Source: Bacteroidaceae bacterium (GTDB lineage: Bacteria; Bacteroidota; Bacteroidia; Bacteroidales; Bacteroidaceae). Taken from it: a stretch of 54,290 nucleotides of DNA. Both the position numbers and the translations under genes were made by a program. The stretch is from assembly GCA_017470425.1 (NCBI GenBank), contig JAFUYT010000026.1, forward strand, positions 1 through 54,290, given 5' to 3'. Position 1 is the stretch's first letter. Every line of letters begins with the position of its first letter. Shown here in pieces: positions 24,480-53,555 of this stretch. The notes beneath the pieces were generated by a model, which saw only the letters and a list, made by a program, of their open reading frames with translations, searched no databases and was not told the origin of the DNA.

Positions 24480-24513
24480 GACTCTCCCCCCGACCTCCCT
24501 ATCAGGGAGGGAG
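24480..24513 (+). repeat. GC-rich palindromic element, copy a (thrA-apgM junction, upstream member)
   Basis: It begins 4 nt after the thrA stop. The tail GACTCTCCCCCC points outward and the palindrome CTCCCTATCAGGGAG points to the start codon of apgM. It is an inverted copy of 24583-24616, matching about 32 of 34 positions. Confidence 0.9.
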
Positions 24514-24550
24514 TATATACCTACTAGGGGGAATGTCTTGAAGAAGAACA

Positions 24551-25894
24551 ATGGAGAAGAATACAAATAGCAACAGTAACAGCTCCCTCCCTTATAGGGA
24601 GGGCGGGGGGAGAGTCCGCCACTTAATCATCCTTGGCGACGGTATGGCCGATTGGCATGTGCCGGCTCTCGGCGGTAAGACCCTCCTGCAGTATGCTGAC
24701 ACGCCCGCGATGGACTGGTTGGCAGCACATGGCCGCAACGGCCTCCTGAAGACCGTCCCCGACGGCTTCCACCCAGGTTCCGAGGTCGCCAACAGCAGTA
24801 TCCTGGGCTACGACCAGCATGTCGTCTATGAGGGTCGCGGCCCGCTCGAAGCAGCCAGTATCGGCGTAGAGCTCGCCCCCGACGACCTCGCCCTGCGCTG
24901 CAACCTCGTCTGCATCGAGGGTGACATCCTCAAGAACCACTCCTGTGGGCGCCTCGAGACCGAGGAGGGCGACCAGCTCATCCGCTACCTCAACGAGCAC
25001 CTCGCCAGCGACCCGCGCTACGGTGGTCGCGTGCGCTTCTACACCGGCGTCCAGTACCGCCACCTCCTCGTCATCAAGGGCGGCGACAAGCGCATCCTCT
25101 GCACCCCGCCCCACGACATCCCCCTCCAGCCGTGGCGCGACTATCAGATCCAGGCGGAAAGTGTGCCCGACGGTTTACCCGTCGGGAATAACCGCCTCTC
25201 TCCCCAGGAGACCGCCGCCCTCCTGCGCGACCTCGTGCTCCGCTCCCAGGAGCTCCTTCCCGCGCATATATTAAATAAGGAACGCGCGCGCGAGGGTAAG
25301 GACATGGCTTCCAGCATCTGGCCCTGGGGCGGCGGCTACCGGCCGCAGATGACACCGCTCACCGAGCGCTTCCCCGACCAGATCCGCCACGGTGCCGTCA
25401 TCACCGCCGTTGATCTCATCCGCGGCATCGGGCACTATGCCGGTTTGCGCGTTATCAACGTCCCCGGTGCCACCGGCCTCTTCGACACTAACTTCGAAGG
25501 CAAGGCGCAGGCCGCCATCGATGCTCTCCTCGGTACCGACCCCGTTGGCCCTGCTGGCGGCGAGGACTTCGTCTATCTCCATGTCGAGGCCAGCGATGAA
25601 GCCGGTCACGACGGCTCTGTGCCCCTCAAGCTACAGACCATCGAAGACCTCGACCACCGCCTCATCCAGCCCATCCTCAAAGCCCTCTGCGGTGAGCCTA
25701 TCTCCATCGCCCTCCTCCCCGATCACCCCACCCCCTGCGAGCACCGCACCCACACCGCCGAGCCCATCCCCTTCTGCATCTACGCCCCCGGCATCGAGCC
25801 CGACAGCGTGCAGACCTTCGACGAGGATGCCGCCCGCGATGGTTCCTACGGCCTCCTCAAAGGTGATGAATTTATCAAAGAGTTTATGAAATGA
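24551..25894 (+). CDS. ApgM-like protein, proposed homoserine kinase of the threonine operon
   Basis: 447 residues. The fold is the cofactor-independent phosphoglycerate mutase / alkaline phosphatase type: HLIILGDGMADW (metal Asp), GSEVANSSILGYD (Ser nucleophile region), ASDEAGHDG and LPDHPTPCEHRTHT. It lies between thrA and thrC and no GHMP-type thrB is present. TIGR02535-type proteins in this position are proposed to be homoserine kinases; that assignment rests on context, so both names remain open. The usual start 'M-HIIILGDG' has no Met here. Translation instead begins at ATG 24551 and passes through residues 11-22, which are encoded by palindromic element copy b. thrC overlaps the stop by 4 nt. 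Confidence 0.88.
   Translation: MEKNTNSNSNSSLPYREGGGRVRHLIILGDGMADWHVPALGGKTLLQYADTPAMDWLAAHGRNGLLKTVPDGFHPGSEVANSSILGYDQHVVYEGRGPLEAASIGVELAPDDLALRCNLVCIEGDILKNHSCGRLETEEGDQLIRYLNEHLASDPRYGGRVRFYTGVQYRHLLVIKGGDKRILCTPPHDIPLQPWRDYQIQAESVPDGLPVGNNRLSPQETAALLRDLVLRSQELLPAHILNKERAREGKDMASSIWPWGGGYRPQMTPLTERFPDQIRHGAVITAVDLIRGIGHYAGLRVINVPGATGLFDTNFEGKAQAAIDALLGTDPVGPAGGEDFVYLHVEASDEAGHDGSVPLKLQTIEDLDHRLIQPILKALCGEPISIALLPDHPTPCEHRTHTAEPIPFCIYAPGIEPDSVQTFDEDAARDGSYGLLKGDEFIKEFMK
24583..24616 (-). repeat. GC-rich palindromic element, copy b (inside apgM N-terminus)
   Basis: CTCCCTCCCTTATAGGGAGG is followed by the tail GCGGGGGGAGAGTC. It is translated in frame as SLPYREGGGRV. With copy a it forms an inverted doublet, 69 nt apart, that encloses the apgM start codon. 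Confidence 0.9.
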
Positions 25895-27291
25895 TGTACT
25901 ATTCTACCAACCATACCGCCGCTCGTGCCACCCTGCGCGACGCCGTCGTCCGTGGCCTCGCTGAGGACCGCGGCCTCTACATGCCTGAGGTCATCAAACA
26001 GCTTCCCGCCTCCTTTTGGCAGGAAATCGGCGACCTCACCTTCCAGGAAGTTGCCTATCGCGTGGCCGATGCCTTCTTCGGCGAGGATGTGCCCGCCGCC
26101 GACCTCCGCCGCATCGTCTATGACACCCTCGCCTTTGACTGCCCCGTCGTGAAGGTCGAAGATCACATCTATGCCCTCGAGCTCTTCCACGGCCCCACGC
26201 TCGCCTTCAAGGATGTCGGTGCCCGCTTCATGGCTCGCCTCCTTCAGTACTTCATCGGTGCCTCCACAGCGGCGAGTGCGCCCGCAGGTTTGCCCGACGG
26301 AACCTCTCCCGTCAACGTCCTCGTCGCCACCTCCGGCGACACAGGCTCCGCCGTCGCCAACGGCTTCCTCGGCGTTGAGGGCATCCATGTCTATGTCCTC
26401 TACCCGAAAGGGAAGGTGTCACCCATCCAGGAGTGCCAGTTCACGACCCTTGGCAAGAACATCACCGCCATTGAGGTAGATGGTGTCTTCGATGACTGTC
26501 AGGCCCTCGTGAAGTCCGCTTTTATGGACAAGGAGCTGAACACCCACATGCGCCTCACCTCCGCCAACAGCATCAATGTCGCCCGTTTCCTCCCCCAAGC
26601 CTTCTATTACTTCTGGGCATACGCACAGTTGGTGAGGTTAAACGGCGGAACGGCGTTGAATCTCACCGTATGCGTTCCCTCTGGCAACTTCGGTAACATC
26701 TGTTCTGCCCTCTTCGGCCACGTCATGGGACTTCCCGTGAAGCGCTTTATCGCCGCCAACAACGCCAACAGCGTCTTCTATGAGTACCTCCAGACGGGAG
26801 AATACCGTCCGCGGCCCTCCGTGCAGACCATCGCCAATGCGATGGATGTCGGCGACCCCAGCAACTTCGCCCGCATCCTCGACCTCTACAGCCGTCCCGA
26901 TGTGAAGGACATCCTTGCGAAGCGCGACATCGCGCAGCCTCTCCCCTCCCTGACGGGAGGGGTGGGGGGTGGGTCTTTCCTCTCTGGCGCCACCTACACC
27001 GACGCCCAGATTGCTGAGACCATGCGTGACTGCTACGCCCGCACCGGCTACGTCCTCGACCCCCACGGTGCCTGCGGCTACCGCGCCCTGAAGGAGCAGT
27101 TACAGCCCGGCGAGGTCGGCATCTTCCTGGAGACCGCTCACCCCGCCAAGTTCAAGGACACCGTCGATCGCATCCTGGGCATCGACCTGCCCATCCCCGA
27201 GAAGCTCCAGGCCTTCATGCGCGGACAGAAGCAGTCCGTAGCGATGTCGAAGGACTTCTCCGACTTCAAGGCCTACCTCTTGCAGCAATAA
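25891..27291 (+). CDS. thrC: Threonine synthase
   Basis: 466 residues from ATG 25891, overlapping the previous stop (ATGA). This is the longer threonine synthase class: YYSTNHTAARATLRDAVVRG, the PLP lysine in HGPTLAFKDVGARFM, then VATSGDTGSAVANGF and CVPSGNFGNICS. It converts phosphohomoserine to threonine and closes the operon. Residues about 351-362 (LPSLTGGVGGGS) are coded by a palindromic element inserted between KRDIAQ and GATYTDAQI, a surface loop in relatives. The stop codon lies inside a 58-bp perfect palindrome shared with the recA 3' end. Confidence 0.97.
   Translation: MMYYSTNHTAARATLRDAVVRGLAEDRGLYMPEVIKQLPASFWQEIGDLTFQEVAYRVADAFFGEDVPAADLRRIVYDTLAFDCPVVKVEDHIYALELFHGPTLAFKDVGARFMARLLQYFIGASTAASAPAGLPDGTSPVNVLVATSGDTGSAVANGFLGVEGIHVYVLYPKGKVSPIQECQFTTLGKNITAIEVDGVFDDCQALVKSAFMDKELNTHMRLTSANSINVARFLPQAFYYFWAYAQLVRLNGGTALNLTVCVPSGNFGNICSALFGHVMGLPVKRFIAANNANSVFYEYLQTGEYRPRPSVQTIANAMDVGDPSNFARILDLYSRPDVKDILAKRDIAQPLPSLTGGVGGGSFLSGATYTDAQIAETMRDCYARTGYVLDPHGACGYRALKEQLQPGEVGIFLETAHPAKFKDTVDRILGIDLPIPEKLQAFMRGQKQSVAMSKDFSDFKAYLLQQ
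26941..26975 (-). repeat. GC-rich palindromic element inside thrC (single copy)
   Basis: CTCCCCTCCCTGACGGGAGG is followed by the tail GGTGGGGGGTGGGTC. The orientation matches copy b. It is read in frame as LPSLTGGVGGGS; no inverted partner lies nearby. Confidence 0.88.
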
Positions 27292-27340
27292 TCACAAGGA
27301 AGGGCACCCCGCGGGGTGCCCTTCCTTGTGATTATTGCTG
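27283..27340. terminator. 58-bp perfect palindrome, bidirectional terminator of thrC and recA
   Basis: Two 29-base arms are perfectly complementary about the centre 27311.5 (core GGGCACCCCGCGGGGTGCCC). The thrC stop TAA (27289-27291) lies within the left arm and the recA stop is 5 nt beyond the right arm. AATAATC / GATTATT ends supply U-rich 3' flanks in both directions. Confidence 0.85.
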
Positions 27341-27345
27341 TCGGA

Positions 27346-28389
27346 TTATTTCTTCTCCTTCTTGACAGGTCCCTTTTCCAGGGCCTCCATGATCTTAGCC
27401 TCGATTTCATCGCAGAGTTCGGGGTTGTCCTGCAGGATCTTCTTGACGGCGTCACGCCCTTGTCCAATCTTGGAGTCGTTGTAGCTGAACCAGGAGCCAG
27501 ACTTCTTGATGATCTCGTACTCCACGCCCAAGTCCACAATCTCGCCGGCGCGGGAGATGCCTTCGCCGAAGCTGATCTCGAACTCAGCCTTGCGGAAGGG
27601 AGGAGCCACCTTGTTCTTGACCACCTTCACGCGCACCTGGTTGCCGATGGCTTCGTCGCCGTCCTTCAGGGTGGTGACCTTGCGGATGTCGAGGCGCACG
27701 GAGCTGTAGAACTTCAGGGCGTTGCCGCCGGTCGTGGTCTCTGGGTTGCCGAACATCACGCCAATCTTCTCGCGCAGCTGGTTGATGAAGATGCAGCACG
27801 TCTTCGTCTTGGAGATGGTGGCAGTGAGTTTGCGCAGCGCCTGACTCATGAGGCGTGCCTGCAGACCTACCTTGTTGTCGCCCATGTCGCCGTCGATTTC
27901 AGCCTTGGGCGTCAGGGCGGCCACGGAGTCGATGACCACGAGATCGACCGCCGACGAGCTGATGAGCTGGTCGGCGATGGCGAGGGCTTGTTCGCCGTTG
28001 TCGGGCTGTGAGATCCAGAGCTCTTCGAGGTTCACGCCTAACTTCTGTGCATAGGTGGGGTCGAAGGCGTGCTCGGCGTCGATGAAGGCTGCGATGCCGC
28101 CGGCCTTCTGCGTCTCGGCGATAGCGTGGATGGTGAGCGTGGTCTTACCGGATGACTCGGGACCGTAGATCTCTATGATACGGCCGCGGGGGTAGCCGCC
28201 CACGCCGAGGGCGTGGTTGAGGCCGATGCTGCCGGTGGGGATGACCTCTACCTTCACGGCAGCCTCACCGCCCATGCGCATGATGCTGCCCTTGCCGAAG
28301 TCCTTTTCGACCTTGTTGATGGCCATCTGGAGCGCTTGCAGCCGTGCAGCCTTCTCGTCAAGAGGCTTTTCTTCTGTTTGTTTTGCCAT
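27346..28389 (-). CDS. recA: Recombinase RecA
   Basis: 347 residues, [20 protein letters not shown]. Walker A is [10 protein letters not shown], Walker B lies in [12 protein letters not shown], followed by the L1/L2 loop region [20 protein letters not shown]. The Lys-rich tail ([13 protein letters not shown]) is short. RecA forms the nucleoprotein filament for strand exchange and the SOS response. No TAnnTTTG box is obvious just upstream, so it may be read from carboxynorspermidine dehydrogenase (64 nt upstream) or use an A/T-rich promoter. No SOS box can be defined by eye. Confidence 0.99.
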
Positions 28390-28453
28390 ATTATATTATA
28401 GTTTAAAGTTGATTTTTTTGGTCATTTCGATATTTCGACATATCTACATCTCT

Positions 28454-29692
<1,239 letters not shown>

Positions 29693-29724
29693 AGTATGAT
29701 TCGTTTTTAATGTGTAATGCGGTG

Positions 29725-29732
29725 CAAAGATA
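29725..29732 (-). promoter_or_regulatory. -7 box of the carboxynorspermidine dehydrogenase gene
   Basis: TATCTTTG on the minus strand, about 32 nt before the start codon. The -33 element is unclear. Confidence 0.55.
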
Positions 29733-29775
29733 GCGGAAAAGTTTGAAAAAGTGGTAGCATCTGCCCAAAAATGAT

Positions 29776-29783: not shown

Positions 29784-29806
29784 CAGAAACTTAACATAAA
29801 ACAGAG

Positions 29807-31150
29807 ATGTTAACTCCCGAAGAACAACAAGAGATCCTGGCCCTGTTGCACCGCGAGGTGGTGCCGGCAATAGGATGTACGGAGCCGATGGCGGTGGCGC
29901 TTTGCGTGGCGCGTGCCACGGAGCTGCTCAGTGCGCAGTGCGGCGCAGCCCGCGTGCTGCCGGAGCGCATCGACCTCCGCCTGAGTGCGAACATACTGAA
30001 AAATGCGATGGGCGTAGGCATCCCGGGCACGGGAGGCATGGTGGGCCTGCCTATCGCCATTGCCCTCGGCACCGTTGGTGGCAAGTCCTGCCTCGGCCTG
30101 GAGGTGCTGCGCGACTGCTCGCCCGCCGACCTCGAAGCTGCCAAGCGCTACGTCGCTGAGGAACGCATCCACATCGCCCTCGAGGAACACGACCCCGACA
30201 AGCTCTATATCCATGTGCAAGTCAAGGCCGCTGGCAAGGAAGCCGAAGCTACCATCAAAGGCACACACACGAATTTCATAGAAAAAACCACCCCTTTTAC
30301 CTCCCGTGAAGGGATGGGAGAAACAGGAGCACAGCCGCACGAGCGAAGCGAGGCTCTCCCCCTCACAGGGGAGCGAGGAGAGGGGTCTCCTTCTCTCACC
30401 CTCCGCCAAGTCTATGACTTCGCCACCACGCAACCCCTTGCCGACATCGCTTTCCTCTTGGAAGCCAAGAAGCTGAACCAGGCGGCTGCCGAGGAAGGCT
30501 TGCGCGAGAACTACGGCCACCAGCTCGGCAAGACGATGTGCTCGCCACTGGGGCGCGGCATCATGGGCGACAGTATCTTCTCCAAGATTCTCTCCGTGAC
30601 CTCCTGTGCCTGCGATGCCCGCATGGCGGGGGCCATGATCCCCGTGATGAGCAACAGCGGCAGCGGCAACCAGGGCATCTGCGCCACGATGCCCGTAGTG
30701 GTCTTTGCGCGCGAGAACCATAATACAGAAGAGGAACTCATCCGCGCCCTCACCCTCTCTCACCTCACCGCCATCTACATCAAGCAGTCCCTGGGCTGCC
30801 TCTCCGCGCTTTGCGGCTGCGTGGTCGCCAGCACGGGCAGCAGCACTGGCATCACCTATCTGATGGGCGGCACCTACGAGCAGATTGCCTACTCGGTCAA
30901 GAACATGATTGCCAACCTCACGGGCATGATCTGCGACGGTGCCAAACCCTCGTGCGCTCTGAAGCTCACCACGGGCGTCGGCACTGCCGTCATGAGTGCG
31001 ATGCTCGCCATCCAGAACAAGCACGTCACCAGCGCCGAAGGCATCATCGAAGAGGATGTCGATCGCAGCATCCACAACCTCACCAGCATCGGTTCCCGCG
31101 GCATGGATGAGACCGACCGCTTCGTCCTCAACATCATGACCCACAAATGA
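29807..31150 (+). CDS. cyuA: L-cysteine desulfidase (CyuA/YhaM, UPF0597 family)
   Basis: 447 residues. MLTPEEQQEILALLHREVVPAIGCTEPMAVALC is followed by NILKNAMGVGIPGTGGMVGLP, the SdaA-like core, and conserved Cys in SVTSCACDARMAGAM, KQSLGCLSALCGC and GMICDGAKPSC. The family holds a 4Fe-4S cluster and breaks cysteine into pyruvate, ammonia and sulfide. Residues about 162-195, between HTNFIEK and LTLRQVYDFAT, are a repeat-derived insertion (PFTSREG ... PLTGERGEG) coded by a palindromic doublet. This is a variable linker in relatives, so activity is probably retained. Confidence 0.9.
   Translation: MLTPEEQQEILALLHREVVPAIGCTEPMAVALCVARATELLSAQCGAARVLPERIDLRLSANILKNAMGVGIPGTGGMVGLPIAIALGTVGGKSCLGLEVLRDCSPADLEAAKRYVAEERIHIALEEHDPDKLYIHVQVKAAGKEAEATIKGTHTNFIEKTTPFTSREGMGETGAQPHERSEALPLTGERGEGSPSLTLRQVYDFATTQPLADIAFLLEAKKLNQAAAEEGLRENYGHQLGKTMCSPLGRGIMGDSIFSKILSVTSCACDARMAGAMIPVMSNSGSGNQGICATMPVVVFARENHNTEEELIRALTLSHLTAIYIKQSLGCLSALCGCVVASTGSSTGITYLMGGTYEQIAYSVKNMIANLTGMICDGAKPSCALKLTTGVGTAVMSAMLAIQNKHVTSAEGIIEEDVDRSIHNLTSIGSRGMDETDRFVLNIMTHK
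30289..30390. repeat. GC-rich palindromic doublet inside cyuA
   Basis: The left member (30289-30320) has tail CCACCCCTTTTA then CCTCCCGTGAAGGGATGGGAG. The right member (30352-30390) has CTCCCCCTCACAGGGGAG then tail CGAGGAGAGGGGTC. Both are read in frame. The middle encodes about ten residues (TGAQPHERSE). Members are more diverged than in clpB or feoAB. Confidence 0.75.
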
Positions 31151-31384: not shown

Positions 31385-34081
<2,697 letters not shown>

Positions 34082-41363: not shown

Positions 41364-41516
41364 ATCGCATCACGCGAGCTTCAATGCCGAAGCACGCGAG
41401 GTTATGCGCTGAAGCACGTGAGCTTGTGCGCTGAAGCACGCGAGGTTATGCGCTGAAACACGTGAGCTTATGCGTTGAAGCACGCGAGCTTCTGGAGAGT
41501 TCCATGCATGGAACTC
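41364..41516. repeat. 22-bp-periodic palindrome array 3 (AAGCACG/CGAGCTT and GAGTTCCATG)
   Basis: Seven units are centred at 41374.5, 41396.5, 41418.5, 41440.5, 41462.5, 41484.5 and 41506.5, exactly 22 bp apart. Six are forms of AAGCACGCGAGCTT with linkers such as ATGCGCTG. The last (41497-41516) is the perfect 20-bp palindrome GAGTTCCATGCATGGAACTC. It lies 24 nt beyond the stop of the FeoB-associated gene. The rest of 41244-41363 holds no gene. Confidence 0.92.
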
Positions 41517-41780: not shown

Positions 41781-44291
41781 TTAAAATAGTCCTCCTATTT
41801 GCACGACGGCGGCGGAGACGAGCCAGGCGAGGGCGGTGGTGTAGCAGGCTGCGAAGAGGGCCCAGCGCCAGGAGGAGGTCTCGTTCTTGATGGCTACGAT
41901 GGTGGCCAGACAGGGGAAGTAGAGGAGGATGAAGAGGAGGTAGGCGTAGGCCGTGAGGGGCGTGAGGCCGTCGGCGGCCATCTGCTGGTGGAGACGTGTG
42001 TATTTGGAGGTGTCTTCGGAGAAGCTGTCATCGTCGCCGAAGCTGTCATCGCCGGAGTAGAGGACGCCCATGGTGGAGGCTACGATCTCCTTGGCGCCGA
42101 CGCCTGCGATGAGGCTGACGTCGAGCTTCCAGTTGAAGCCCTGCGGCGCGAAGAGGGGTTCGATGGCCTTGCCGGCGCGGCCGAGGTAGGAGGTTTCCAT
42201 GGAAGCCCCTCTCCCCGCTCCCCCCGTGGGGGGGAGGGTCTCCTCTCCCCGTGGGAGGGAGGGCGACACTTCTTGAGAGGACAGGGCTTTCTCCCCCCCA
42301 CGGGGGGAGTCAGAGAGGGGCCAGTAGCTGAGCGCCCAAACGATGATGGAGGCGACGAGGATGATGCCGCCCATCTTCTTGAGGTACTCCTTGCCTTTCT
42401 CCCAGGTGTGGCGCCCGATGGCTTTGGCGGTGGGCCAGCGGTAGGGCGGCAGCTCCATGACGAAGGGGGTGTCCTCGCCCTTGATGACGAAGCGCGAGAA
42501 GAAGCGGGAGACGAGGACAGCCACGAGGATGCCGACGGCGTAGAGCGAGATCATCACCCAGGAGCGCCACTGGGCCGCGAAGAAGGTGCCCACGATCATT
42601 ATATATATAGGTAGGCGCGCGGAGCATGACATGAAGGGGAGGACCATCATGGTGATGAGGCGTGAGCGGCGGCTCTCGATGGTGCGGGTGGCCATGACGG
42701 CGGGTACGTTGCAGCCGAAGCCCATGACGAGCGGGATGAACGACTTGCCGTGGAGTCCCATGCGGTGCATGAGTTTGTCCATGATGAAGGCTGCACGCGC
42801 CATATACCCAGAGTCTTCCATGAAGGATATGAAGAAGTAGAGGATGAGGATCTGTGGCAGGAAGACGATGACGGAGCCGACGCCTCCGATGACGCCATCG
42901 ACGAGCATGGAGCGGAGGGGACCTTCGCTCATGGTGGTGCCTATCCACTCCCCGAGCCACGCCACGCCGGCCTCGATCCAGTCCATCGGGTACTGCCCAA
43001 GGGCGAAGGTGGTCTGGAACATGACGAAGAGGATAAGGAAGAAGATGGGGAAGCCGAGGTACTTGTTCGAGAGGATGTTGTCGATGAGGTGGGTGGTGCG
43101 GTAGGTGTCGGTCTTGGTGCCGGTGCGGAATCCTGCTTCGGCGAGTGCTCCGCGGATGAAGCCGTACTTGGCGTCCATGATGGCCGTCTCGGAATCGACG
43201 CCGGTCTCCTCGAGGACGCGTGCGCTGGCGTGGTCGCGGGCAGCCATGAGCTGTCGGCGGTCCTCGCTGCGGTGCTCGCTCTCGACGTGGCTCTCGACGA
43301 AGCGCGTGACCTCGGCGTCGTGTTCGAGGAGCTTGATGGCGAGGTAGCGCGTGGAGTACTGCGTGGTGAGGTGTTCGTCGGCCTTGAGGAACTGCTGGAT
43401 ATGCGTGATGCCGTCCTCGATCTCGTGGCCGTAGTTGATGTGGATGTGTCGGGTGGTGGCGTTGGTGCCCTCATAGACCTCGATGATGGTGTGGAAGAGC
43501 TCCTGGACGCCGCGCCCGCTCTTGAAGGATGTCGGCACGAGGGGCACGCCGAAGAGGGTGGCGAGGGTGTCGAGGTCGAGCTGGTCGCCGCGGCGCTCGA
43601 ACTCGTCGTACATGTTCAGCGCGCAGACCATGCGCAGGTTCATATCTACGAGCTGCGTCGTCAGGTAGAGGTTGCGCTCGAGGTTGGAGGCGTCGAGGAC
43701 GTTGATGACCACGTCGGGGCGCTGCGTCGTCAGGTGCTGCCGGACGTAGAGCTCCTCGGGGGAGTAGCAGGAGAGGGAGTAGGTGCCGGGGAGGTCGGTG
43801 AGGTTGAAGGTGTAGCCCTCCATCTCGGCGGTGGCGAGGCTGGCATCGACGGTGACGCCGGAGTAGTTGCCGACGTGGCCGTGGGCGCCGCTGGCGTAGT
43901 TGAAGAGCGATGTCTTGCCGCAGTTGGGGTTGCCGATGAGGGCTACGTTGATGGTCTTGCGCTGCCGCTGTGCCATCGCCTGCAGCTGCTCCTCGGTGAG
44001 CTGGACGTGCTCGGTGATGGTCTCTCGCTCGGCGATGTTCTCGTGCCCAGCGTCGTGGTCGGCCTCTGCCTCGCTGACGATCTCGATGAGCTCAGCCTCG
44101 TCGTGGCGCAGGCTGACCTCGTAGCCCATGAGCTTGTATTTCACAGGGTCTTGGAGGGGCGCATTGAGGAGTGCCTCTACGGTCTGTCCCTTGATGAAGC
44201 CCATCTCGATGATGCGCTTGCGGAATCCTCCGTGGCCGCTGACTTTGACGATGACGGCGCGCTGGCCGGTCTGTAGTTCTGACAGTTTCAT
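41781..44291 (-). CDS. feoB: Ferrous iron transporter, FeoA-FeoB fusion
   Basis: 836 residues from ATG 44289-44291 (MKLSELQTGQRAVIVKVSGH). Residues about 1-75 are FeoA (SH3-like). The FeoB G domain follows: GNPNCGKTSLFN, TDLPGTYSLSCYSPEE, NVLDASNLERNLYL, NMYDE. A helical insertion domain and a polytopic Gate membrane region come next (LGFPIFFLILFVMFQ ... FIPLVMGFGCNVPAVMATRT). It imports Fe2+ across the inner membrane. Residues about 657-696, between ALSYWP and SYLGRAGKAIEP, are repeat-coded (LSDSPRGGEK ... LPPTGGAGRGAS). Relatives carry a variable loop there, so function is probably kept. Confidence 0.96.
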   Translation of the reverse strand: MKLSELQTGQRAVIVKVSGHGGFRKRIIEMGFIKGQTVEALLNAPLQDPVKYKLMGYEVSLRHDEAELIEIVSEAEADHDAGHENIAERETITEHVQLTEEQLQAMAQRQRKTINVALIGNPNCGKTSLFNYASGAHGHVGNYSGVTVDASLATAEMEGYTFNLTDLPGTYSLSCYSPEELYVRQHLTTQRPDVVINVLDASNLERNLYLTTQLVDMNLRMVCALNMYDEFERRGDQLDLDTLATLFGVPLVPTSFKSGRGVQELFHTIIEVYEGTNATTRHIHINYGHEIEDGITHIQQFLKADEHLTTQYSTRYLAIKLLEHDAEVTRFVESHVESEHRSEDRRQLMAARDHASARVLEETGVDSETAIMDAKYGFIRGALAEAGFRTGTKTDTYRTTHLIDNILSNKYLGFPIFFLILFVMFQTTFALGQYPMDWIEAGVAWLGEWIGTTMSEGPLRSMLVDGVIGGVGSVIVFLPQILILYFFISFMEDSGYMARAAFIMDKLMHRMGLHGKSFIPLVMGFGCNVPAVMATRTIESRRSRLITMMVLPFMSCSARLPIYIMIVGTFFAAQWRSWVMISLYAVGILVAVLVSRFFSRFVIKGEDTPFVMELPPYRWPTAKAIGRHTWEKGKEYLKKMGGIILVASIIVWALSYWPLSDSPRGGEKALSSQEVSPSLPRGEETLPPTGGAGRGASMETSYLGRAGKAIEPLFAPQGFNWKLDVSLIAGVGAKEIVASTMGVLYSGDDSFGDDDSFSEDTSKYTRLHQQMAADGLTPLTAYAYLLFILLYFPCLATIVAIKNETSSWRWALFAACYTTALAWLVSAAVVQIGGLF
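42204..42322. repeat. GC-rich palindromic doublet (type II) inside feoAB
   Basis: One member (42204-42240) has tail AGCCCCTCTCCCCG and palindrome CTCCCCCCGTGGGGGGGAG. The other (42287-42322) has CTCCCCCCCACGGGGGGAG and tail TCAGAGAGGGGCC. A smaller related palindrome (CTCTCCCCGTGGGAGGGAGG) lies between them. All are read in frame. Confidence 0.9.
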
Positions 44292-44431: not shown

Positions 44432-44457
44432 ATGTGACGGCATCACGTGGCGAAAAA

Positions 44458-44520: not shown

Positions 44521-46543
<2,023 letters not shown>

Positions 46544-46581
46544 TTATTATTTGTAATAGAGACTTATTTCTAATTGTAATC

Positions 46582-46617
46582 ACTCCCTCCCCTTTAGGGA
46601 GGGTGAGGGGAGAGTCC
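46582..46617 (-). repeat. GC-rich palindromic element at the mutL-trpS junction
   Basis: ACTCCCTCCCCTTTAGGGAG then tail GGTGAGGGGAGAGTCC. It ends one base from the mutL stop codon. Tail-out partner of 46472-46506. Confidence 0.9.
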
Positions 46618-46618
46618 C

Positions 46619-48457
46619 CTATTTGAAGAGTTGGGTGATGTGGTCTTGGGGGATGAGGGCTGTGATGGGATGGCCGTCGGGGGTGTAGTTGGGCGTCTGG
46701 GTGGCGTGGAGCTGCGCCACGAGGCTCTGCATCTCCTGCTGTGTGAGGATCTGCCCGGTGGGGATGGCGGCGGCACGGGCCATGGTGAGGGCGAACTTGC
46801 CGAAGAGCTGCTCGGCAGTGAGGGTGCCGCGGTCGGCGGCTGCGGCGAGGAGCTCGGTGAGGAGGCGCTGGATGTCGATGCCCTCGAAGCCGGAGGGGTA
46901 GCCGATGATGGAGATGGCTCCGCCGCCGAGGTCGTTGACATCGAAGCCGAAGCGCTGCAGCTGCGGGGCGATGGCGGCGAAGATGGCGGCGCTGGCGGGG
47001 CTGAGCTCCATGACCTCGGGGAAGAGGTAGCGCTGGGAGGGGAGGGGGGCGCTCTGGAGCTGCGTCATATAGCGGTCGTAGAGGACACGGATGTGGGCGC
47101 GGTGCTGGTCGATGAGCAGGAGGCCGTCCTCGGCGGGGGCGAGGAGGTAGGTGGCGCGGTACTGGAGGAGCGAGGGGGGCGCTTCGGGGGCTGCGTCGGG
47201 GGTGACTGCACCCGCGTAGAGGAGTTCCCAGTCACGGGGGACTTGCTGGGCGCGGGCGTGGCCGGGCACGGTCTCCAGAGGGGAGGAGACAGACCCTCCC
47301 TGACGGGAGGGGAACGACGGCTCTTGGGGGGCGGAGTTGAAGGGGTTATAGGTGGGATCGACGTGGACGGTGGGTGGCGCGGGAGTGCGGGGGAGGGTCG
47401 GATCGAGGGGGTTATAGACGGGGATGTCGTCGGGGCGGCCTTCGGTGTCGAAGTCCATGGAGGGGATGGCGTTGAAGCGGCCGAGCGCTTCGCGGATGGC
47501 GGCCAGGAGGATCTGCCAGATGGCCATCTCGTTCTCGAACTTGATCTCGGTCTTGGTGGGGTGGATGTTGACGTCAATCTCGGCGGGGGGCACGTCGAAG
47601 TAGAGGAAGTAGGGGACCTGCTCGTCGGCGGGGATGAGGCGGGCGAAGGCCTCCTGGACGGCGCGGTGGAAGTAGGGGTGCCGCATGTAGCGGTTGTTGA
47701 CGAAGAAGAACTGCTGGAGGCCGCGCTTGCGGGATGCCTCCGGCTTCCCTACGAAGCCGCAGATGCTGACCATCGGGGTCTCGACCTCCACGGGGAGGAG
47801 ATTGTCGGCCAGACGCGTGCCGAAGACGTTGGCGATGCGCTGCTTGAGGTTGGAGGGCGTGAGGCTGAATAGGATGGTGCCGTTGTGGGTGAAGGTGAAG
47901 GCGATGTCGGGGTGCACGAGCACGATGCGCTCGAGCTCGGTGGAGATGTTGGCAAGTTCTGTCTGGTTGCTCTTGAGGAACTTGCGGCGCGCGGGTACGT
48001 TGAAGAAGAGGTTCTTAATGAGGAAGTTGGCCCCTACGGCGCAGGCTGTGGGCTCCTGGGTGATGATGCGGGAGCCTTCGAGGACGAGGTGTGTGCCGAG
48101 GTCTTCGTCGGCCGTGCGGGTGGTGAGCTCGACCTGTGCCACGGAGGCGATGGAGGGTAGTGCCTCGCCGCGGAAGCCCATGGTGGTGAGGGTGAAGAGG
48201 TCTGCGGCCTGCTGTATCTTGCTGGTGGCGTGGCGCTCGAAGGCCATGCGGGCGTCGGTCTCGCTCATGCCCTTGCCGTCGTCGATGACCTGGAGGCTGG
48301 TGCGTCCGGCATCGAGGGCTACGATGTCGATGTGGTGGGCACCGGCATCGACAGCGTTCTCGACTAACTCCTTGACGACGGAGGCGGGACGCTGGATGAC
48401 CTCGCCAGCGGCAATCTGGTTGGCGACGGAATCGGGGAGGAGGTGGATAAGGTCCAT
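46619..48457 (-). CDS. mutL: DNA mismatch repair protein MutL
   Basis: 612 residues from ATG 48455-48457 (MDLIHLLPDSVANQIAAGEV). A longer in-frame start would overlap the preceding gene and add a Ser-rich run. GHKL ATPase motifs: ELVENAVDAGA, DDGKGM, TMGFRGEALPSIASV. The N-terminal domain ends about residue 330, then a variable linker and the C-terminal dimerisation domain follow (YLLAPAEDGLLLIDQHRAHIR). The linker holds PSFPSRQGGSVSSP, coded by a palindromic element (47287-47320). No DQHA(x)2E(x)4E metal motif is intact: the sequence reads DQHRAHIR, so endonuclease activity is uncertain. Confidence 0.97.
   Translation of the reverse strand: MDLIHLLPDSVANQIAAGEVIQRPASVVKELVENAVDAGAHHIDIVALDAGRTSLQVIDDGKGMSETDARMAFERHATSKIQQAADLFTLTTMGFRGEALPSIASVAQVELTTRTADEDLGTHLVLEGSRIITQEPTACAVGANFLIKNLFFNVPARRKFLKSNQTELANISTELERIVLVHPDIAFTFTHNGTILFSLTPSNLKQRIANVFGTRLADNLLPVEVETPMVSICGFVGKPEASRKRGLQQFFFVNNRYMRHPYFHRAVQEAFARLIPADEQVPYFLYFDVPPAEIDVNIHPTKTEIKFENEMAIWQILLAAIREALGRFNAIPSMDFDTEGRPDDIPVYNPLDPTLPRTPAPPTVHVDPTYNPFNSAPQEPSFPSRQGGSVSSPLETVPGHARAQQVPRDWELLYAGAVTPDAAPEAPPSLLQYRATYLLAPAEDGLLLIDQHRAHIRVLYDRYMTQLQSAPLPSQRYLFPEVMELSPASAAIFAAIAPQLQRFGFDVNDLGGGAISIIGYPSGFEGIDIQRLLTELLAAAADRGTLTAEQLFGKFALTMARAAAIPTGQILTQQEMQSLVAQLHATQTPNYTPDGHPITALIPQDHITQLFK
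47287..47320. repeat. GC-rich palindromic element inside mutL linker (single, diverged)
   Basis: GACAGACCCTCCCTGACGGG then AGGGGAACG: the CCCTCCC-TGAC-GGGAGGG core is kept and the tail is short. In frame in the variable linker, residues about 379-390. Confidence 0.75.
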
Positions 48458-48458
48458 A

Positions 48459-48755
48459 TCAGAAACGGAAGCTACCCGTGAGGAGGTAGTGCCAGAGGAT
48501 GAGGAGGACGACGATGATGGCGATAGCGATGCCGGGGTGGAGGCGGCGGCGCTCGGGGTCTGCACGCTTGAGGTTCTTGGAGAACTTGCCGCGGTAGGAG
48601 TCGAGGTCGAGCTTGTATTCGGGTGTCTCGCCGCGCTCGATCTGCTCCTCGCGCTTGGCTTCCTCGATCAGGCGGTTGAGCTTGTCCTTGCGCTCGGAGG
48701 TGTATATGTGGACGCCGCGGAAACGACGTGGTTCACGGGTGGAGAAGAGGGACAT
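48459..48755 (-). CDS. Small protein with C-terminal membrane helix, function unknown
   Basis: 98 residues, MSLFSTREPRRFRGVHIYTS. A charged, helical N-terminal part (LNRLIEEAKREEQIERGETP) and basic middle are followed by one C-terminal membrane helix (IAIAIIVVLLILWHYLLTG), so it is probably tail-anchored in the inner membrane. It ends one base before the mutL ATG. A gene of this type commonly lies between ostA and mutL in Bacteroidales; I know of no function. Confidence 0.85.
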   Translation of the reverse strand: MSLFSTREPRRFRGVHIYTSERKDKLNRLIEEAKREEQIERGETPEYKLDLDSYRGKFSKNLKRADPERRRLHPGIAIAIIVVLLILWHYLLTGSFRF

Positions 48756-48805
48756 TGAAAGATTGAAGGATTGAAAAATTGAAAGATTGAGAAATTGTAA
48801 AGGGG

Positions 48806-50581
48806 TTAGGTGGGGGATTGCTCCGTGGCAGACTGCTCCGTGGCGGGTGGCTCCGTGGCAGGCTGCGCTTGAGCGGGTGGTTCTGTGGCGGGTGGAGCAG
48901 CGGGCTTATTGCTCCGGCCGCGGTTCTTCTTGGGGCCGGCGTGCTTCACGGAGGGCTTGAGCTCGGTGCCTGGTTTCTTGGGGCGCCAGTTGAAGATGTC
49001 GTCTTTGTCGAGGGGTCGGACGTAGTCGAACCACTGGAAGTTGGGGAGATAACGGACGTTGGGGGGGATGAGGGCGAGGGGGTGGAGGCGGCCTTCGGCC
49101 TCGCCGTCGAACATGATTTTCTTGACCTGACGGTTTTCCATGTAGAGGTTCAGGAGGGAGCCCTCGGCGTGGAGGAGGCCGATCATGAGGCTGTCGGAGT
49201 CGAAGGGATAGTAGTTGGTGACGACGTTGCCTGCGGTGACGGTGGTGTGCATCTCGCCGTCGCGGAAGTAGGAGCGCATGATGGCGCCGGTGACTTGGTT
49301 GTAGTAGGCAGAGTCGATGCGCTCCACGGAGAGTGCCTGGCGGATGACGTGGGTGGAATCGATGGTGGAGTCGTTCATCCATGCCTTGATCTCTTCGCCG
49401 AGGATCTGCTGCCCGTCCTGCCAGAGGATGGGGTCGTAGTACATGGTGAGGCAGGAGTCGGTGGAGAGATAGACCATGGAGTCGCAGACGGCCTGCACGT
49501 CGCGGCGGTAGGCACGCACGTGGCGGTAACCTCGCATCTCGCGCCAGACGCTGTCGGTGTTGATGTTGTAGGTGAAGAGCTTGAAGGTGTCGGCGTGTAT
49601 GTAGAAGCTGTCGCGCTGGGAGAAGTCGATGAGCACGGCGCTGTCCGCGGCCTCGGCGTAACCGATGGAGTCAGCGTAGAGGGCGTAGTGGCCTGTCATC
49701 ATGTTCTTGTTGACGTTATCAATGCTGACGACGTTGCCGAAGGCTTTGGAGATGGCTCCCTCGCCGATGTAGTCGAGGCTGTCGCCAGTGATGGTGCGCC
49801 CTTTATTGCTGACGATGGAGCGGTCGAGGAGGTGGGCGTGGTCGGTGCGTGTGTCGTAGGTCCCGCGCTCGCTGTAGATGTGGTTGTCGCCATTGTCAAT
49901 GTTGGAGGGGCCTACGATGCGTGCAATCTCGGTGCCGGTGTTGTAGTGGAGGGTGTCGCTGAGGAGCGTGAACTTGGGGTTCTGCAGATCGACGTTGTAG
50001 TTGAAGATAGCTTCGCGCGTGGCGGGGCTGTACTGTCCCCATTCGCTGGTGAGCGTGTTGTCGCCATCGACGAGCTTGCCGCCCTGGAAGAAGTAACCGA
50101 GGTTGTAGAGGCGGTCGTAGTCGAGGCTGTCGCAGAAGAGGCGGCTGTCGTAGTGCTTCAGGACGACGTTGTAGCGTGCCATGGCGAGCTGGTCGAAGCC
50201 GTCGTAGTAGAGGACGTCGGAGTTGAGAATAAGGGTGTCGGCCTGGTTCATGACGACGTGGCCGAAGGCGTCGAAGGAGTTGCTGGCCTCGTAGTAGAGG
50301 GCGCTGTCGCAGGTGAGGATGATGTCGTCGTGGCGGAAGCGGACGTTGCCGACGAGGATCTGCGCCTCGCGGTTGACGCGCTGGTTGTGGTAGAGCTCGT
50401 CGGAGTGGAGGAGGATGATGCGGCTACCGCCTCCCCTGCCTTTCTTAGGAGACTTGGCTGCAGACCCAGATGCGGACCCACCCCCCTGCCCCTCCCTTGT
50501 AGGGAGGGGAGTAATTACACTTGCCAATGAACAGAATGCTGTCAGCAAGGCTATGAGGATAAAGGGAATTCTTCTTTTCAT
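48806..50581 (-). CDS. OstA-like protein (LptA/LptD N-terminal fold)
   Basis: 591 residues. Signal peptide MKRRIPFILIALLTAFCSLA. Repeating beta-strand pairs of the OstA type run through the middle: ILVGNVRFRHDDIILTCDSA, FGHVVMNQADTLILNSDVLY and ITGDSLDYIGEGAISKAFGN. Such proteins bind lipopolysaccharide in the periplasm during export. Residues about 24-37 (TPLPTREGQGGGSA), just after the signal peptide, are coded by a palindromic element. The C-terminus is a repeated Pro/Ala/Thr/Glu tail (ATEPPA, ATEQSATEQS) coded by tandem DNA repeats around 48825-48900. It sits in an envelope-assembly operon after two parvulins. Confidence 0.9.
   Translation of the reverse strand: MKRRIPFILIALLTAFCSLASVITPLPTREGQGGGSASGSAAKSPKKGRGGGSRIILLHSDELYHNQRVNREAQILVGNVRFRHDDIILTCDSALYYEASNSFDAFGHVVMNQADTLILNSDVLYYDGFDQLAMARYNVVLKHYDSRLFCDSLDYDRLYNLGYFFQGGKLVDGDNTLTSEWGQYSPATREAIFNYNVDLQNPKFTLLSDTLHYNTGTEIARIVGPSNIDNGDNHIYSERGTYDTRTDHAHLLDRSIVSNKGRTITGDSLDYIGEGAISKAFGNVVSIDNVNKNMMTGHYALYADSIGYAEAADSAVLIDFSQRDSFYIHADTFKLFTYNINTDSVWREMRGYRHVRAYRRDVQAVCDSMVYLSTDSCLTMYYDPILWQDGQQILGEEIKAWMNDSTIDSTHVIRQALSVERIDSAYYNQVTGAIMRSYFRDGEMHTTVTAGNVVTNYYPFDSDSLMIGLLHAEGSLLNLYMENRQVKKIMFDGEAEGRLHPLALIPPNVRYLPNFQWFDYVRPLDKDDIFNWRPKKPGTELKPSVKHAGPKKNRGRSNKPAAPPATEPPAQAQPATEPPATEQSATEQSPT
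50471..50512 (+). repeat. GC-rich palindromic element inside ostA, after the signal peptide
   Basis: Tail TGCGGACCCACCCCCCTG then CCCCTCCCTTGTAGGGAGGGG. Read on the minus strand as TPLPTREGQGGGSA. Inverted partner at 50591-50631; the segment between codes the signal peptide. Confidence 0.9.
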
Positions 50582-50590
50582 TAGTAACTG

Positions 50591-50631
50591 CTCCCCTCCC
50601 TACAAGGGAGGGGTAGGGGGGTGGGTCTGCA
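50591..50631 (-). repeat. GC-rich palindromic element at the surA-ostA junction
   Basis: CTCCCCTCCCTACAAGGGAG then tail GGGTAGGGGGGTGGGTCTGC. It lies 12 nt after the surA-like stop and 9 nt before the ostA ATG. Confidence 0.9.
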
Positions 50632-50643
50632 GTTTGTGGGGTC

Positions 50644-52023
50644 CTACTCTTTCACCCACCCCGGATACTGGAAGTCGCAGTTGACCCATTCGGGGTTGAT
50701 GCGTACGTAGGTGGTGCGTTGCTTCTGACGTATCCAGTCGAGGATGAACTCCTCGGAGCGTTTGTTGCGGACGATGGCGCTGAGGACCTGGAAGTCTTCG
50801 GTGATGGTGGCGGCGTGCTGCTTGATGCGGTTCTTGAGCTTGATGATGCAGCACTGCTCCTTGCCTTTCTTGTCGATCATGGTGAAGGGCTTGGAGACTT
50901 CGCCGACATCGAGACCCTCGACGACGCGCGCGATCTCTACGGGCAGCTCGCTCATCTTGAAGCGCGAGGTGCGTATGCGCTCGCCCGTGGCGGCATCCTC
51001 TGTGACGTTGAACATCAGTCCTCGGTTGGCGCGTGAATCGACGTCGTCGGAGAGGCGCGAGGCGGCAGCCTCGAAGGTGAACTCGCCGTTGCGGATGTCG
51101 GCGGCGATGGAGTCGAGGCGGGCGAGGCTGGCATCGATGTCGGCCTGCTCTACGCGGGGCTTCTTCAGGATGTGACGGAGCTTGAGCTTGTCGCCGCGCT
51201 TATCGACGAGCTGGATGATGTGGTAGCCGAACTGCGACTCTACGATCTTGGAGACCTTCTTGGGGTCGGTAAGGCTCCATGCGACGTTGGCGAAGGCGGG
51301 GTCGAGCTCCATCTTGCCCATGTAGTCCATCTCGCCTCCTTGGCGTGCGGAACCGGGGTCCTCGCTGTAGAGGATCGCAAGCGTGGAGAAGCTGGAGGAG
51401 CCGTTCTGTATGCGCTCAGTGTAGTCGCGGAGCTCTTCCTTCACGCGGTCGATCTCCTCCTGCTGGATGTGGGGATGTTCGGCGAGGAGCTCCACTTCGA
51501 CCTGCGTGGGGATGAGGGGCAGCGAGTCCTCGGGCACGTCCTTGAAGAAATGGCGCACCTCGGCGGGGCTGACCTTGATGTCCTTCGTCAGATGCTCGCG
51601 CACGAGTGTCATGGTCTGGTTGTCCTTGACGAGGTCGTAGGTCTCTTCGCGGATCTGCGCCATCGTCATGCCCCGGTACTCTTCGAGCTTCTCCTTGGAG
51701 CCTGCGGTCTGCACCCATTGGTTGATCTGCGCCTCGACGTAGCGGTTGACCTGGTCCGCTGGGGCGTCGATGCTGTCAATCTGTGCCTGGTGGAGGAAGA
51801 GCTTCTGGATGGCCAGGTTCTCGGGGATGACACAATAGGGGTTGCCGCTGACGCGTGTCATCTGGGTGCGCGCTTTCTCGACGTCGCTCAGCAGGATGGC
51901 CTCGTCGCCGACGACCCAGATCACCTCATCGACGGTGTTGGGCAGCCCTTGTGCGTGGATCGTCGCGTGTGCTCCTGCGACGAGGAACGCGACGGTCATG
52001 AGTCGCTTGATATGTTTACTCAT
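50644..52023 (-). CDS. SurA-like periplasmic peptidyl-prolyl isomerase
   Basis: 459 residues. Signal peptide MSKHIKRLMTVAFLVAGAHA (cleaved near HAQ). A SurA N-terminal chaperone region (DEVIWVVGDEAILLSDVEKA) precedes two parvulin domains: LYSEDPGSARQGGEMDYMGK with FGYHIIQLVDKRG, then the second at RLDSIAADIRNGEFTFEAAA. It assists folding of outer-membrane barrels. The ATG overlaps the stop of the preceding parvulin gene by one base (TGATG), so translation is probably coupled. Confidence 0.93.
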   Translation of the reverse strand: MSKHIKRLMTVAFLVAGAHATIHAQGLPNTVDEVIWVVGDEAILLSDVEKARTQMTRVSGNPYCVIPENLAIQKLFLHQAQIDSIDAPADQVNRYVEAQINQWVQTAGSKEKLEEYRGMTMAQIREETYDLVKDNQTMTLVREHLTKDIKVSPAEVRHFFKDVPEDSLPLIPTQVEVELLAEHPHIQQEEIDRVKEELRDYTERIQNGSSSFSTLAILYSEDPGSARQGGEMDYMGKMELDPAFANVAWSLTDPKKVSKIVESQFGYHIIQLVDKRGDKLKLRHILKKPRVEQADIDASLARLDSIAADIRNGEFTFEAAASRLSDDVDSRANRGLMFNVTEDAATGERIRTSRFKMSELPVEIARVVEGLDVGEVSKPFTMIDKKGKEQCCIIKLKNRIKQHAATITEDFQVLSAIVRNKRSEEFILDWIRQKQRTTYVRINPEWVNCDFQYPGWVKE

Positions 52024-53483
52024 CAGTGTTTGTTGACGGTTTTGATAGCTTCTTCATAGACCTCTACGGGGTAGCGGCGGCGGAGCTCCTCTACGAACTC
52101 GCGCTCCTTGACGGCCTGGTAGTCGGTGACGACCTGCGCGCTGACGTCCGTCCAGCGCTGTGGCCCTTTCTTGAGCTTGCGGCCGATGAGCCCCACGGCG
52201 GGGTACTTGGCGCTGATGCGGGTCTTACCGGCTTTGACGCCGAAGGCGAGGGAATCGACGAGTGCGCTCTCGCCCTGTGCGAAGATGCGGCGCTCAAAGC
52301 GCACCTGCACGCTGTCCTTGTTGAACTGCGTCTTGACGATGCCTGCCCACTGGTCCTCGTCCTTGCCCTTGAGCGTCCGCTGCACTTCCTTGAGGACATC
52401 GGGGTTGATGGCCTGCAGGAGTGCTCCGGCGTAGTGTGGCTTGTCGAAGGCGTAGGCTTTCTTGTTCTTCTTGAAGTACTGCTCCAGTGCGAGGGTGTCC
52501 TTGGCGGCGGGCTCCCAGACCTGTCGCTGGCAGATCTCGTAGAAGAGGAGGCCGTCGTGGTATTCCTGGATGAGGTATTTCAGGTCGCTGTCCTGGGCCG
52601 CGAGGCGCTCGGCCTCGGCATCCATGACCTCCTCGGCGGTCTTGCCGGTCTGCTTGGCGAGGCTGTCGATGGCGGTGTCGGCGATGCGGTCCTTGAGGCC
52701 GCGGGTCTCCAGGAACTGCAGAATGCGCGGGCGCAGGGTGTCGTAGGGCTCGAGTGGCTTCTTGTCGGTGAGCTTCAGAATGTGCCATCCGACGGTGGAG
52801 AGCAGAGGCTCGCGGACCTCTCCGACCTGCATGGCATAGAGGGCATCCTCGATCTCCTTGAGGAGCTGTTTGGGGCCGATCCAGCTGATGGTGCCTCCGC
52901 GCTGTGCGGTGCCTTTGTCGTCGGAGGTGTTCTTGGCGAGCTCTGCGAAGTCCTCGCCGGCCTGCAGGCGGGCGTAGATGGAGTCGATGCGTGCCTTGGC
53001 GGCAGCCTGCTGCTCGGGCGTGGCCTGCTGGGTTACGTGCACGAAGATGTGGGCAGGCAACAGCAGCTCCTTGCCTTCGAGCTGGTCGAGCATCTGGTTG
53101 TAGTAGTTGCGCACCTCCTGCTCCTCGGCTGCGGGACCTACGAGGAGGGGGCGGATCTGCTGGTCGCGGTAGGTGCGGAACTCCTGCTGGTAGCTGGAGA
53201 GCGTGTCGTAGTGGGCATCGAGGGCGGCCTCGACCTTCAGCTTGTAGTTGACGAACAGCTCGACGTATTCCTCGACGCTCTTCTTGTCGATGACGCCGTC
53301 GGTGTTGTTCTTGTTGTAGTTGTACTCAAACTCCGACCGCGTCACGTCCTTGCCGTTGATGCGCATGACAACAGGGTCCTCAGGACCCTCCCCCAGCCCT
53401 CCCTCAAGGGAGGGTGCAGTTACTTTTGCCATGAGGGTAGCTGCCATCAGAAACGTGGAAATTAATACAGGAAGTTTTTTCAT
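52023..53483 (-). CDS. Periplasmic PpiC-type peptidyl-prolyl isomerase
   Basis: 486 residues. Signal peptide MKKLPVLISTFLMAATLMAK. A SurA_N-like segment (VMRINGKDVTRSEFEYNYNK) and a parvulin domain (PAHIFVHVTQQATPEQQAAA ... AQRGGTISWIGPKQ ... VGWHILKLTDKKP) are visible. The C-terminal half is another chaperone-like region. Residues 23-34 (APSLEGGLGEGP), directly after the signal peptide, come from a palindromic element. It acts in envelope protein folding with the SurA-like gene that overlaps its stop. guaB lies 73 nt upstream on the same strand. Confidence 0.92.
   Translation of the reverse strand: MKKLPVLISTFLMAATLMAKVTAPSLEGGLGEGPEDPVVMRINGKDVTRSEFEYNYNKNNTDGVIDKKSVEEYVELFVNYKLKVEAALDAHYDTLSSYQQEFRTYRDQQIRPLLVGPAAEEQEVRNYYNQMLDQLEGKELLLPAHIFVHVTQQATPEQQAAAKARIDSIYARLQAGEDFAELAKNTSDDKGTAQRGGTISWIGPKQLLKEIEDALYAMQVGEVREPLLSTVGWHILKLTDKKPLEPYDTLRPRILQFLETRGLKDRIADTAIDSLAKQTGKTAEEVMDAEAERLAAQDSDLKYLIQEYHDGLLFYEICQRQVWEPAAKDTLALEQYFKKNKKAYAFDKPHYAGALLQAINPDVLKEVQRTLKGKDEDQWAGIVKTQFNKDSVQVRFERRIFAQGESALVDSLAFGVKAGKTRISAKYPAVGLIGRKLKKGPQRWTDVSAQVVTDYQAVKEREFVEELRRRYPVEVYEEAIKTVNKH
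53383..53416 (+). repeat. GC-rich palindromic element inside ppiC, after the signal peptide
   Basis: Tail GGACCCTCCCCCAG then CCCTCCCTCAAGGGAGGG. Read on the minus strand as APSLEGGLGEGP. Inverted partner at 53520-53555; the start codon and signal peptide lie between. Confidence 0.88.
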
Positions 53484-53519
53484 TGTTATTTCTAATGTGT
53501 TCTATACTTGAATGGTGAC

Positions 53520-53555
53520 CACTCCCTCCCTATAAGGAGGGCGGGGGGAGGGTTC
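53520..53555 (-). repeat. GC-rich palindromic element at the guaB-ppiC junction
   Basis: CACTCCCTCCCTATAAGGAGG then tail GCGGGGGGAGGGTTC, ending one base from the guaB stop codon (53557-53559). Confidence 0.88.

Follow-up and report, generated by a model that had tools for sequence, protein, structure and literature searches.

Why is one GC-rich palindromic sequence translated in frame inside several protein genes of a Bacteroidaceae genome, and what put it there? The question is raised by a stretch of 54,290 bp, called here the window (G000:C23:1-54290), which comes from a 2.42-Mb assembly of 36 contigs that is 72% complete. The answer that we favour, with a probability of roughly 0.78, is that the copies in the window are non-autonomous members of a mobile family. 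A full member would consist of a left palindromic arm, a gene for a DUF559 endonuclease and a right arm in inverted orientation, and the arm-spacer-arm short units would be its internal-deletion derivatives, related to it as REPINs, the paired form of repetitive extragenic palindromic (REP) sequences, are to REPtrons. Put differently, and with the same confidence, this would be an in-frame mobile element that encodes an endonuclease and has REPIN-like short derivatives; the endonuclease may drive its spread. Gene names are those of the first-pass annotation or come from our own reading of the translations, except where a Pfam result is given.

Paired arms, start codons and empty sites

One form of the repeat, the A-type arm, has the consensus AAAGGTAACnG-CTCCCTCCCT-nAT-AGGGAGGG-CGGGGGGAGAGTCT. 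Eight such arms, scoring 40-71 bits, are present in the window as four inverted pairs, at apgM, trpS, ostA and ppiC. In the apgM pair the left arm (24478..24524, minus strand, 62.6 bits) directly follows the stop codon of thrA (24476), the spacer (24525..24571, plus strand) contains the present ATG of apgM (24551), and the right arm (24572..24618, plus strand, 70.6 bits) encodes the ApgM N-terminus SSLPYREGGGRV. At trpS the right arm (46471..46517, minus strand, 59.7 bits) encodes the TrpS N-terminus, the spacer (46518..46571, minus strand) carries the trpS ATG (46537) and has an end resembling the 3' end of the full element (7.6 bits), and the left arm (46572..46618, plus strand, 57.2 bits) lies directly after the mutL stop codon (46619). 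The right arm in OstA (50473..50522, minus strand, 40.7 bits), which is of a longer subtype, follows an apparent signal peptide (TPLPTREGQGGGS) and is paired with a left arm upstream of ostA (50580..50629, plus strand, 43.4 bits). In the PpiC-like protein, which is encoded upstream, the right arm (53382..53427, minus strand, 52.5 bits) also follows an apparent signal peptide (TAPSLEGGLGEG), its left partner (53511..53556, plus strand, 47 bits) being located directly after the guaB stop codon (53557). The ostA (50473-50629) and ppiC (53382-53556) pairs thus enclose an apparent signal peptide, whereas cytosolic genes have polar leaders instead.

Copies of the element are numerous outside the window as well. 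The strict core CTCCCTCCCTN{2,5}AGGGAGGG had 56 matches in the 2.42-Mb genome and none when the pattern was reversed; a covariance-model scan of the same genome, in which 150 of 1586 first-look candidates were scored, gave at least 143 rows at E ≤ 0.1, some of them representing one core on both strands. An nhmmer survey of 54 stretches around matches and of the window yielded 115 distinct arms, which formed 43 pairs and left 29 single arms. Neighbouring arms less than 400 bp apart stood in the -+ order in 43 of 46 cases. One pair (L187) repeats another (L186), leaving 42 unique pairs; L186 (G000:C23:143000-148000) and L187 (G000:C24:66000-70500) show a single ddl-like locus, the spacer of the element being identical on the two contigs, and represent an assembly duplication or redundancy. 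Within the genus, element matches per genome ranged very unevenly from 0 to at least 76.

These observations bear out the view of the first-pass annotation that a mobile palindromic element is read in frame in many proteins, and its description of the sequence stands. At least two reading frames are indeed used, the trpS peptide being read in one and the apgM peptide in another. Eight of the nine genes that it listed (apgM, thrC, cyuA, clpB, feoAB, trpS, ostA and ppiC) were confirmed as carriers; in mutL there is a possible but weak arm remnant (FPSRQGG; 47292..47313, minus strand), with a short core and a 19-bp match only. What had been missed was the pairing and direction of the arms, the replacement of the start codon in apgM and trpS, and the coding partner described below.

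The placement of the 42 pairs relative to genes was compared with that of random placements in the same stretches, the start of the downstream gene being defined in both sets as its first in-frame ATG. This ATG was inside the pair in 28 cases (9.7% of random placements) and just 3' of the right arm in six (3.2%), while seven pairs were intragenic and open throughout (75%); the remaining pair had no called gene, yet a start is visible in its spacer. The left arm began between -3 and +2 nt from the upstream stop codon in 19 of the 42 pairs, against 0.3% of random placements. Typical N-termini encoded by the element begin with MNPTSQIHSAPSLTGRAGGES or MTMNSSTAKHTAPSLIGRAGGESAIDILTLGCSKN. Outside the source genome, 16 pairs in 15 stretches of five genomes, chosen since both of their arms were already among the listed matches, gave nine that enclose a start, five that run through a gene and two that do neither.

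Sharply empty sites were found at thrA|apgM and mutL|trpS in relatives that lack the element there. In G010, G011, G018 and G019, apgM starts at or a few bases from the thrA stop codon; in the source genome about 140 bp separate this stop from apgM codon 3, the native ATG is lost and the ATG of the element is in its place. The empty mutL|trpS alleles of G018 and G019 encode MNQKIILTG and MEPKQKIILTG, and the trpS of the window has a longer, element-coded N-terminus, its native ATG being gone. The predicted presence and absence of the insert among ClpB orthologues was also seen in a comparison of 12 loci, 10 of which were read: the source genome and G015 share the insert, and that of G016 is related to it; in G001, G014 and G017 the loop is short and contains no insert, and in G002, G003, G006 and G010 it is longer and lacks the motif. 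Two separate arm insertions around a native start were considered and are disfavoured at apgM and trpS, because relatives with empty sites also lack the spacer and exceptions to the -+ order of the arms are few; they are possible for ostA and ppiC.

In some cases the same host gene carries an element in different species (L176/L343, L243/L248, and window positions 24478-24618 with L147 and L149). We take these genes, from their sequences, to be HSP15-like, fmt-like and apgM, respectively. The fmt-like and apgM elements differ in subtype between species, which hints at preferred sites.

The frequent enclosure of a start and the abutment on an upstream stop would also suit selected regulatory modules, that is, long mRNA hairpins that hold the start codon in the loop and tune translation inside operons. 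As an explanation of the family this is quite improbable: seven pairs lie within genes, occupancy varies between close relatives, and a DUF559 gene between the arms would not be predicted. A regulatory role would be compatible with mobility.

The DUF559 gene between the arms

In one pair of the source genome the spacer of 389 nt encodes a DUF559 domain (PF04480, E = 6e-33), and all five DUF559 copies of this genome are located between inverted arms. The association was examined more widely by searching the 330-bp flanks of DUF559 copies for inverted repeats at E ≤ 1e-3, with control windows taken from the same loci. Inverted arms flanked 45 of 53 unique copies (2 of 212 control windows). Of the named loci, which comprise the best 80 of 568 relatives, 62 had such arms (4 of 240 controls); two or more of these 80 are copies already counted among the 53. 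Across the phylum, arms were found at 17 of 29 fetched copies, against 0 of 87 controls. Among four plasmid loci outside the phylum, the inverted repeats were clear in Sphingomonas and Deinococcus and weak in Synechocystis, and none was found in Azospirillum.

The 18 misses among the best 80 of the 568 relatives include eight copies in frames of 846-871 amino acids, seven from Flavobacteriaceae and one from a Bacteroidia metagenome-assembled genome. Four of these eight were read and contain RecG motifs, one of them confirmed by Pfam. In L290, L297, L324 and L328, which are from several genera of Flavobacteriaceae, DUF559 is inserted in frame in RecG, where the DEQH motif lies on one side of it and TATPIPR on the other. 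The RecG insertion, with its degraded or undetectable arms, is apparently an old insertion that has been retained.

Homing endonucleases of the EDxHD family share a motif of E, D, E-x-D and H. In 82 DUF559 copies, from which the named loci were excluded since their search pattern had used some of these residues, E29, D57, E68, D70 and H74 were kept in 82, 82, 82, 81 and 82 copies, respectively. The DUF559 profile matches two entries of the Protein Data Bank, 3hrl and 3r3p, the latter deposited as a mobile intron protein. Judged by residue pattern and profile match, the DUF559 protein is an EDxHD/Vsr-like endonuclease. Related assignments occur in passages of earlier papers, which name the motif in EDxHD homing endonucleases such as I-Bth0305I (PMC3943268), place a DUF559 gene in the EDxHD family (PMC9403480) and describe a Vsr-like DUF559 protein in Caulobacter (PMC12907096). 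A stop codon was present in 29 of 161 aligned copies, in all 29 outside the last 12 residues; the longest query, which extends upstream of the domain, may explain part of these stops, and the openness of frames was judged only on the genus, named-locus and phylum frames, not on the 161-copy alignment.

The way in which the gene is joined to its neighbour could be seen in ten full elements of A-type or A-like structure. In six of them the TGA stop codon of DUF559 overlaps the ATG of the next protein, and in L243 the ATG lies within the last DUF559 codons, so that the ATG overlaps the DUF559 end in seven of ten; L232, L258 and L220 have longer spacers. In most A-type full elements examined this ATG appears to open a short linker peptide, translation of which would continue across the right arm into the gene that follows, and the element would therefore provide the start codon and the N-terminus of the host gene. 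In other cases the complete unit, whether it includes DUF559 or not, seems to be translated in frame through a loop or linker of the protein. Pfam scans (E ≤ 1e-5) of 19 selected proteins, 17 of them DUF559 fusions, placed DUF559 in frame within, or fused to, proteins with matches to RecG, LeuS, GH31, guanylate kinase, GARS (PurD), Ham1 and MazG, and likewise to an aconitase family protein, GcpE (IspG), B12-dependent methionine synthase (MetH), HsdM, a Type ISP enzyme, poly(A) polymerase and YgbB (IspF).

Conserved proteins as hosts, a homing-type nuclease and an open reading frame are also what an intein-like, intron-like or translational-bypass element might show, which would be removed before the protein functions. 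No intein splicing (Hint) domain was listed in the 19 proteins at the threshold used, no Rfam match was found in the window, and a bypassed sequence would not need an open frame; of the explanations weighed here, removal is the least probable.

In the genus, PF04480 was detected in 28 of 35 element-bearing and in 2 of 14 element-free genomes (p = 3e-5). The corresponding numbers for Y1_Tnp (PF01797), weak partial matches counted, were 14 of 35 and 3 of 14 (p = 0.32). This comparison bears on the parallels to which the first-pass annotation had chiefly turned, the Rickettsia palindromic elements and the REP sequences with their REP-associated tyrosine transposase (RAYT). The family resembles REPs, REPINs and REPtrons in its short tailed palindromes, inverted pairs, many non-autonomous copies and a nuclease gene with copies of these repeats on either side, and passages on REPs and RAYTs in PMC3733652 fit the idea that this is an ordinary REP/REPIN family whose mobility depends on a RAYT (Y1) transposase, DUF559 being an incidental companion. 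It differs from them in that the nuclease is DUF559 (EDxHD) and not the Y1_Tnp of RAYT, and in that the units are often read in frame, can give the start codon and in some cases lie inside genes. The suggested RAYT-like gene was not found: PF01797 had no match in the source genome, at its 72% completeness, nor in the element-rich G015, G016, G018, G019 and G040. With Y1_Tnp not tracking the element across the genus and DUF559, not Y1_Tnp, standing between the arms, RAYT was rejected as the mobiliser, and we consider this explanation very improbable.

The arms and the nuclease also vary together. Among 100 copies with arms at E ≤ 1e-5, compared as 4803 copy pairs without homologous flanks, arm similarity rose with DUF559 identity (Spearman 0.25; none of 999 permutations was as high), the mean arm similarity being 0.34 at 35-45% DUF559 identity and 0.82 above 75%. 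An excess of 115 arms over five DUF559 copies in the source genome, and the element-rich genomes in which DUF559 was not detected, could mean that in-frame palindromes of the Rickettsia type are spread by some other enzyme and that DUF559 is a passenger which also uses the arms. The location of DUF559 between inverted arms in the genus, order and phylum samples and its co-variation with them speak against a passenger, and this explanation, the least improbable of the rivals, is nevertheless unlikely.

Spread of the element and its relation to known systems

At the apgM|thrC site a DUF559-bearing element was found in G003, G016, G042 and G043 and not in the source genome, G002, G010, G011, G018, G019 and G029. 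Between G003 and G042 the element core is 99.4% identical, and most 100-bp bins of the flanks are 79-94% identical; between G002 and G043 the element is 100% and the alignable flanks are 74-91% identical. In these two same-site pairs steps of identity surround the element, at about -116 to +510 and -91 to +424 from the start of the DUF559 core. Such element-limited identity looks like the pattern expected of transfer of the element alone into the same site, which by itself does not prove the part of the nuclease. The apgM pair had no match in the phage collection.

In the mechanism that we propose, cutting by DUF559 would drive the spread through break repair (homing), DUF559 or its repair intermediates would recognise the arm hairpins, occasional ectopic events would colonise new sites, and selection would retain the insertions that are in frame or rescue a start.

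Several observations weigh against this picture. In a third same-site pair (L274/L278) identity steps on the left side only. DUF559 was not detected in 7 of the 35 element-bearing genomes, including the element-rich G018 and G026 (the assemblies are 61-87% complete); conversely, G024, G025 and 11 genomes of other genera have DUF559 without a match to the R1 element. Of 32 genomes outside the genus, the one with R1 matches (G050) does have two DUF559 copies. When starts are taken as the gene caller assigns them, no more than 10 of the 42 pairs enclose one (7.4% of random placements); the first in-frame ATG was preferred because the caller scores codons and tends to skip element-coded N-termini. 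No target-site duplication was found at the 42 pairs, the outer k-mers being shared no more than in shuffled partners, and the insertion ends may have drifted. In this respect the family also differs from a miniature inverted-repeat transposable element of a DDE insertion sequence, which would have such a duplication. Spacer ends, tested at both ends of each pair, were clearly like the 3' end of the full element in only 11 of 66, and many spacers have therefore drifted or are of other origin. Finally, the ostA and ppiC spacers hold what by eye appear to be native signal peptides, which insertion of the unit in one step fails to explain; arms can therefore come separately, or the unit once captured a signal peptide.

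Palindromes in frame in unrelated proteins are known from the protein-coding palindromic elements of Rickettsia and Wolbachia. The likeness to these is one of description, and the inverted-pair unit, the start replacement and the full form encoding an endonuclease set the present family apart. To our knowledge, the mobility partner of Rickettsia-type in-frame palindromes is an open question, and the DUF559 gene offers a candidate partner for one in-frame protein-coding palindrome family.

With the EDxHD homing endonucleases (such as I-Bth0305I; PMC3943268) the family has in common the profile match to 3r3p and an element-limited identity between species that resembles homing; it differs in the palindromic arms, the many nuclease-less short derivatives and a context in which no intron or intein was seen. 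ShiLan, according to the abstract of PMC11855218, is a non-splicing insertion in a phage methylase that is open in the host frame and carries a homing endonuclease, and to this extent it is similar. Its nuclease is of the HNH type and in an alternative frame, it is described mainly in phages, and palindromic arms are unmentioned in that abstract; DUF559, unlike the ShiLan nuclease, shares the frame of its host gene or overlaps the start of that gene. No account of DUF559 with palindromic arms was found in the consulted parts of the literature on palindromic elements, RAYT, DUF559, EDxHD enzymes and endonucleases inserted in frame.

It is fairly probable, if less so than the reading of the window itself, that these elements represent a widespread bacterial class of selfish DNA: an in-frame homing element made of DUF559 and its own palindromic arms, which does not splice, survives by read-through or start replacement, and sheds short REPIN-like derivatives, by which N-termini and loops have been reshaped in many proteins of rumen-type Bacteroidales and their relatives. 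If true, this would give a biological role to DUF559, a common family that Pfam labels as being of unknown function, and would mean that a selfish nuclease can live in conserved genes without an intron or intein. Mobile DNA that replaces start codons and N-termini at many genes matters for protein evolution and also for annotation, where unusual N-termini, SAPSLIGRAGGES among them, result from it.

Other elements and repeats in the window

The elements in thrC, clpB, feoB and cyuA belong to other arm subtypes and match DNA beside DUF559 genes. The thrC element (PLPSLTGGVGGGS; 26930..26977, plus strand, 22.3 bits) shows 92% identity, across 53 aligned columns, with the sequence next to a DUF559 copy of the source genome (L237, contig C1). 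The cyuA element (30310..30390, plus strand) matches, over 35 columns with 89% identity, the flank of the IspG-DUF559 fusion of G016 (L242). In clpB there are two B-type arms, one encoding SNSPRGGE (33601..33645, plus strand, I4) and a second at 33674..33707 (plus strand, I7); over 110 columns the clpB insert is 81% identical to the DUF559 flank of L242 and 78% to that of L245, an apparently similar DUF559 fusion in G015. The feoAB arms, also of B-type, are located at 42205..42238 (minus strand, I7), with an exact stretch of 33 bp in common with L242, and at 42277..42321 (SDSPRGGE; minus strand, I4). The feoB element matches the flanks of both L242 and L245.

Repeats of other kinds were noted as well. 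Inverted repeats of 70 nt (680-749 and 3586-3655, 81%) flank the region 680-3655, possibly another mobile element, and tandem palindromic units of 22 nt (GTCTCACNCGTGAGAC) at 1282-1370 adjoin an open reading frame of 755 amino acids. At 18114-18238 and 41367-41513, which are 23 kb apart, there are two arrays that share 22-nt units based on AAGCTCGCGAGCTT / AAGCACGCGAGCTT palindromes. A perfect inverted repeat of 29 bp with no loop (27283-27340) lies between the convergent thrC and recA-like genes.

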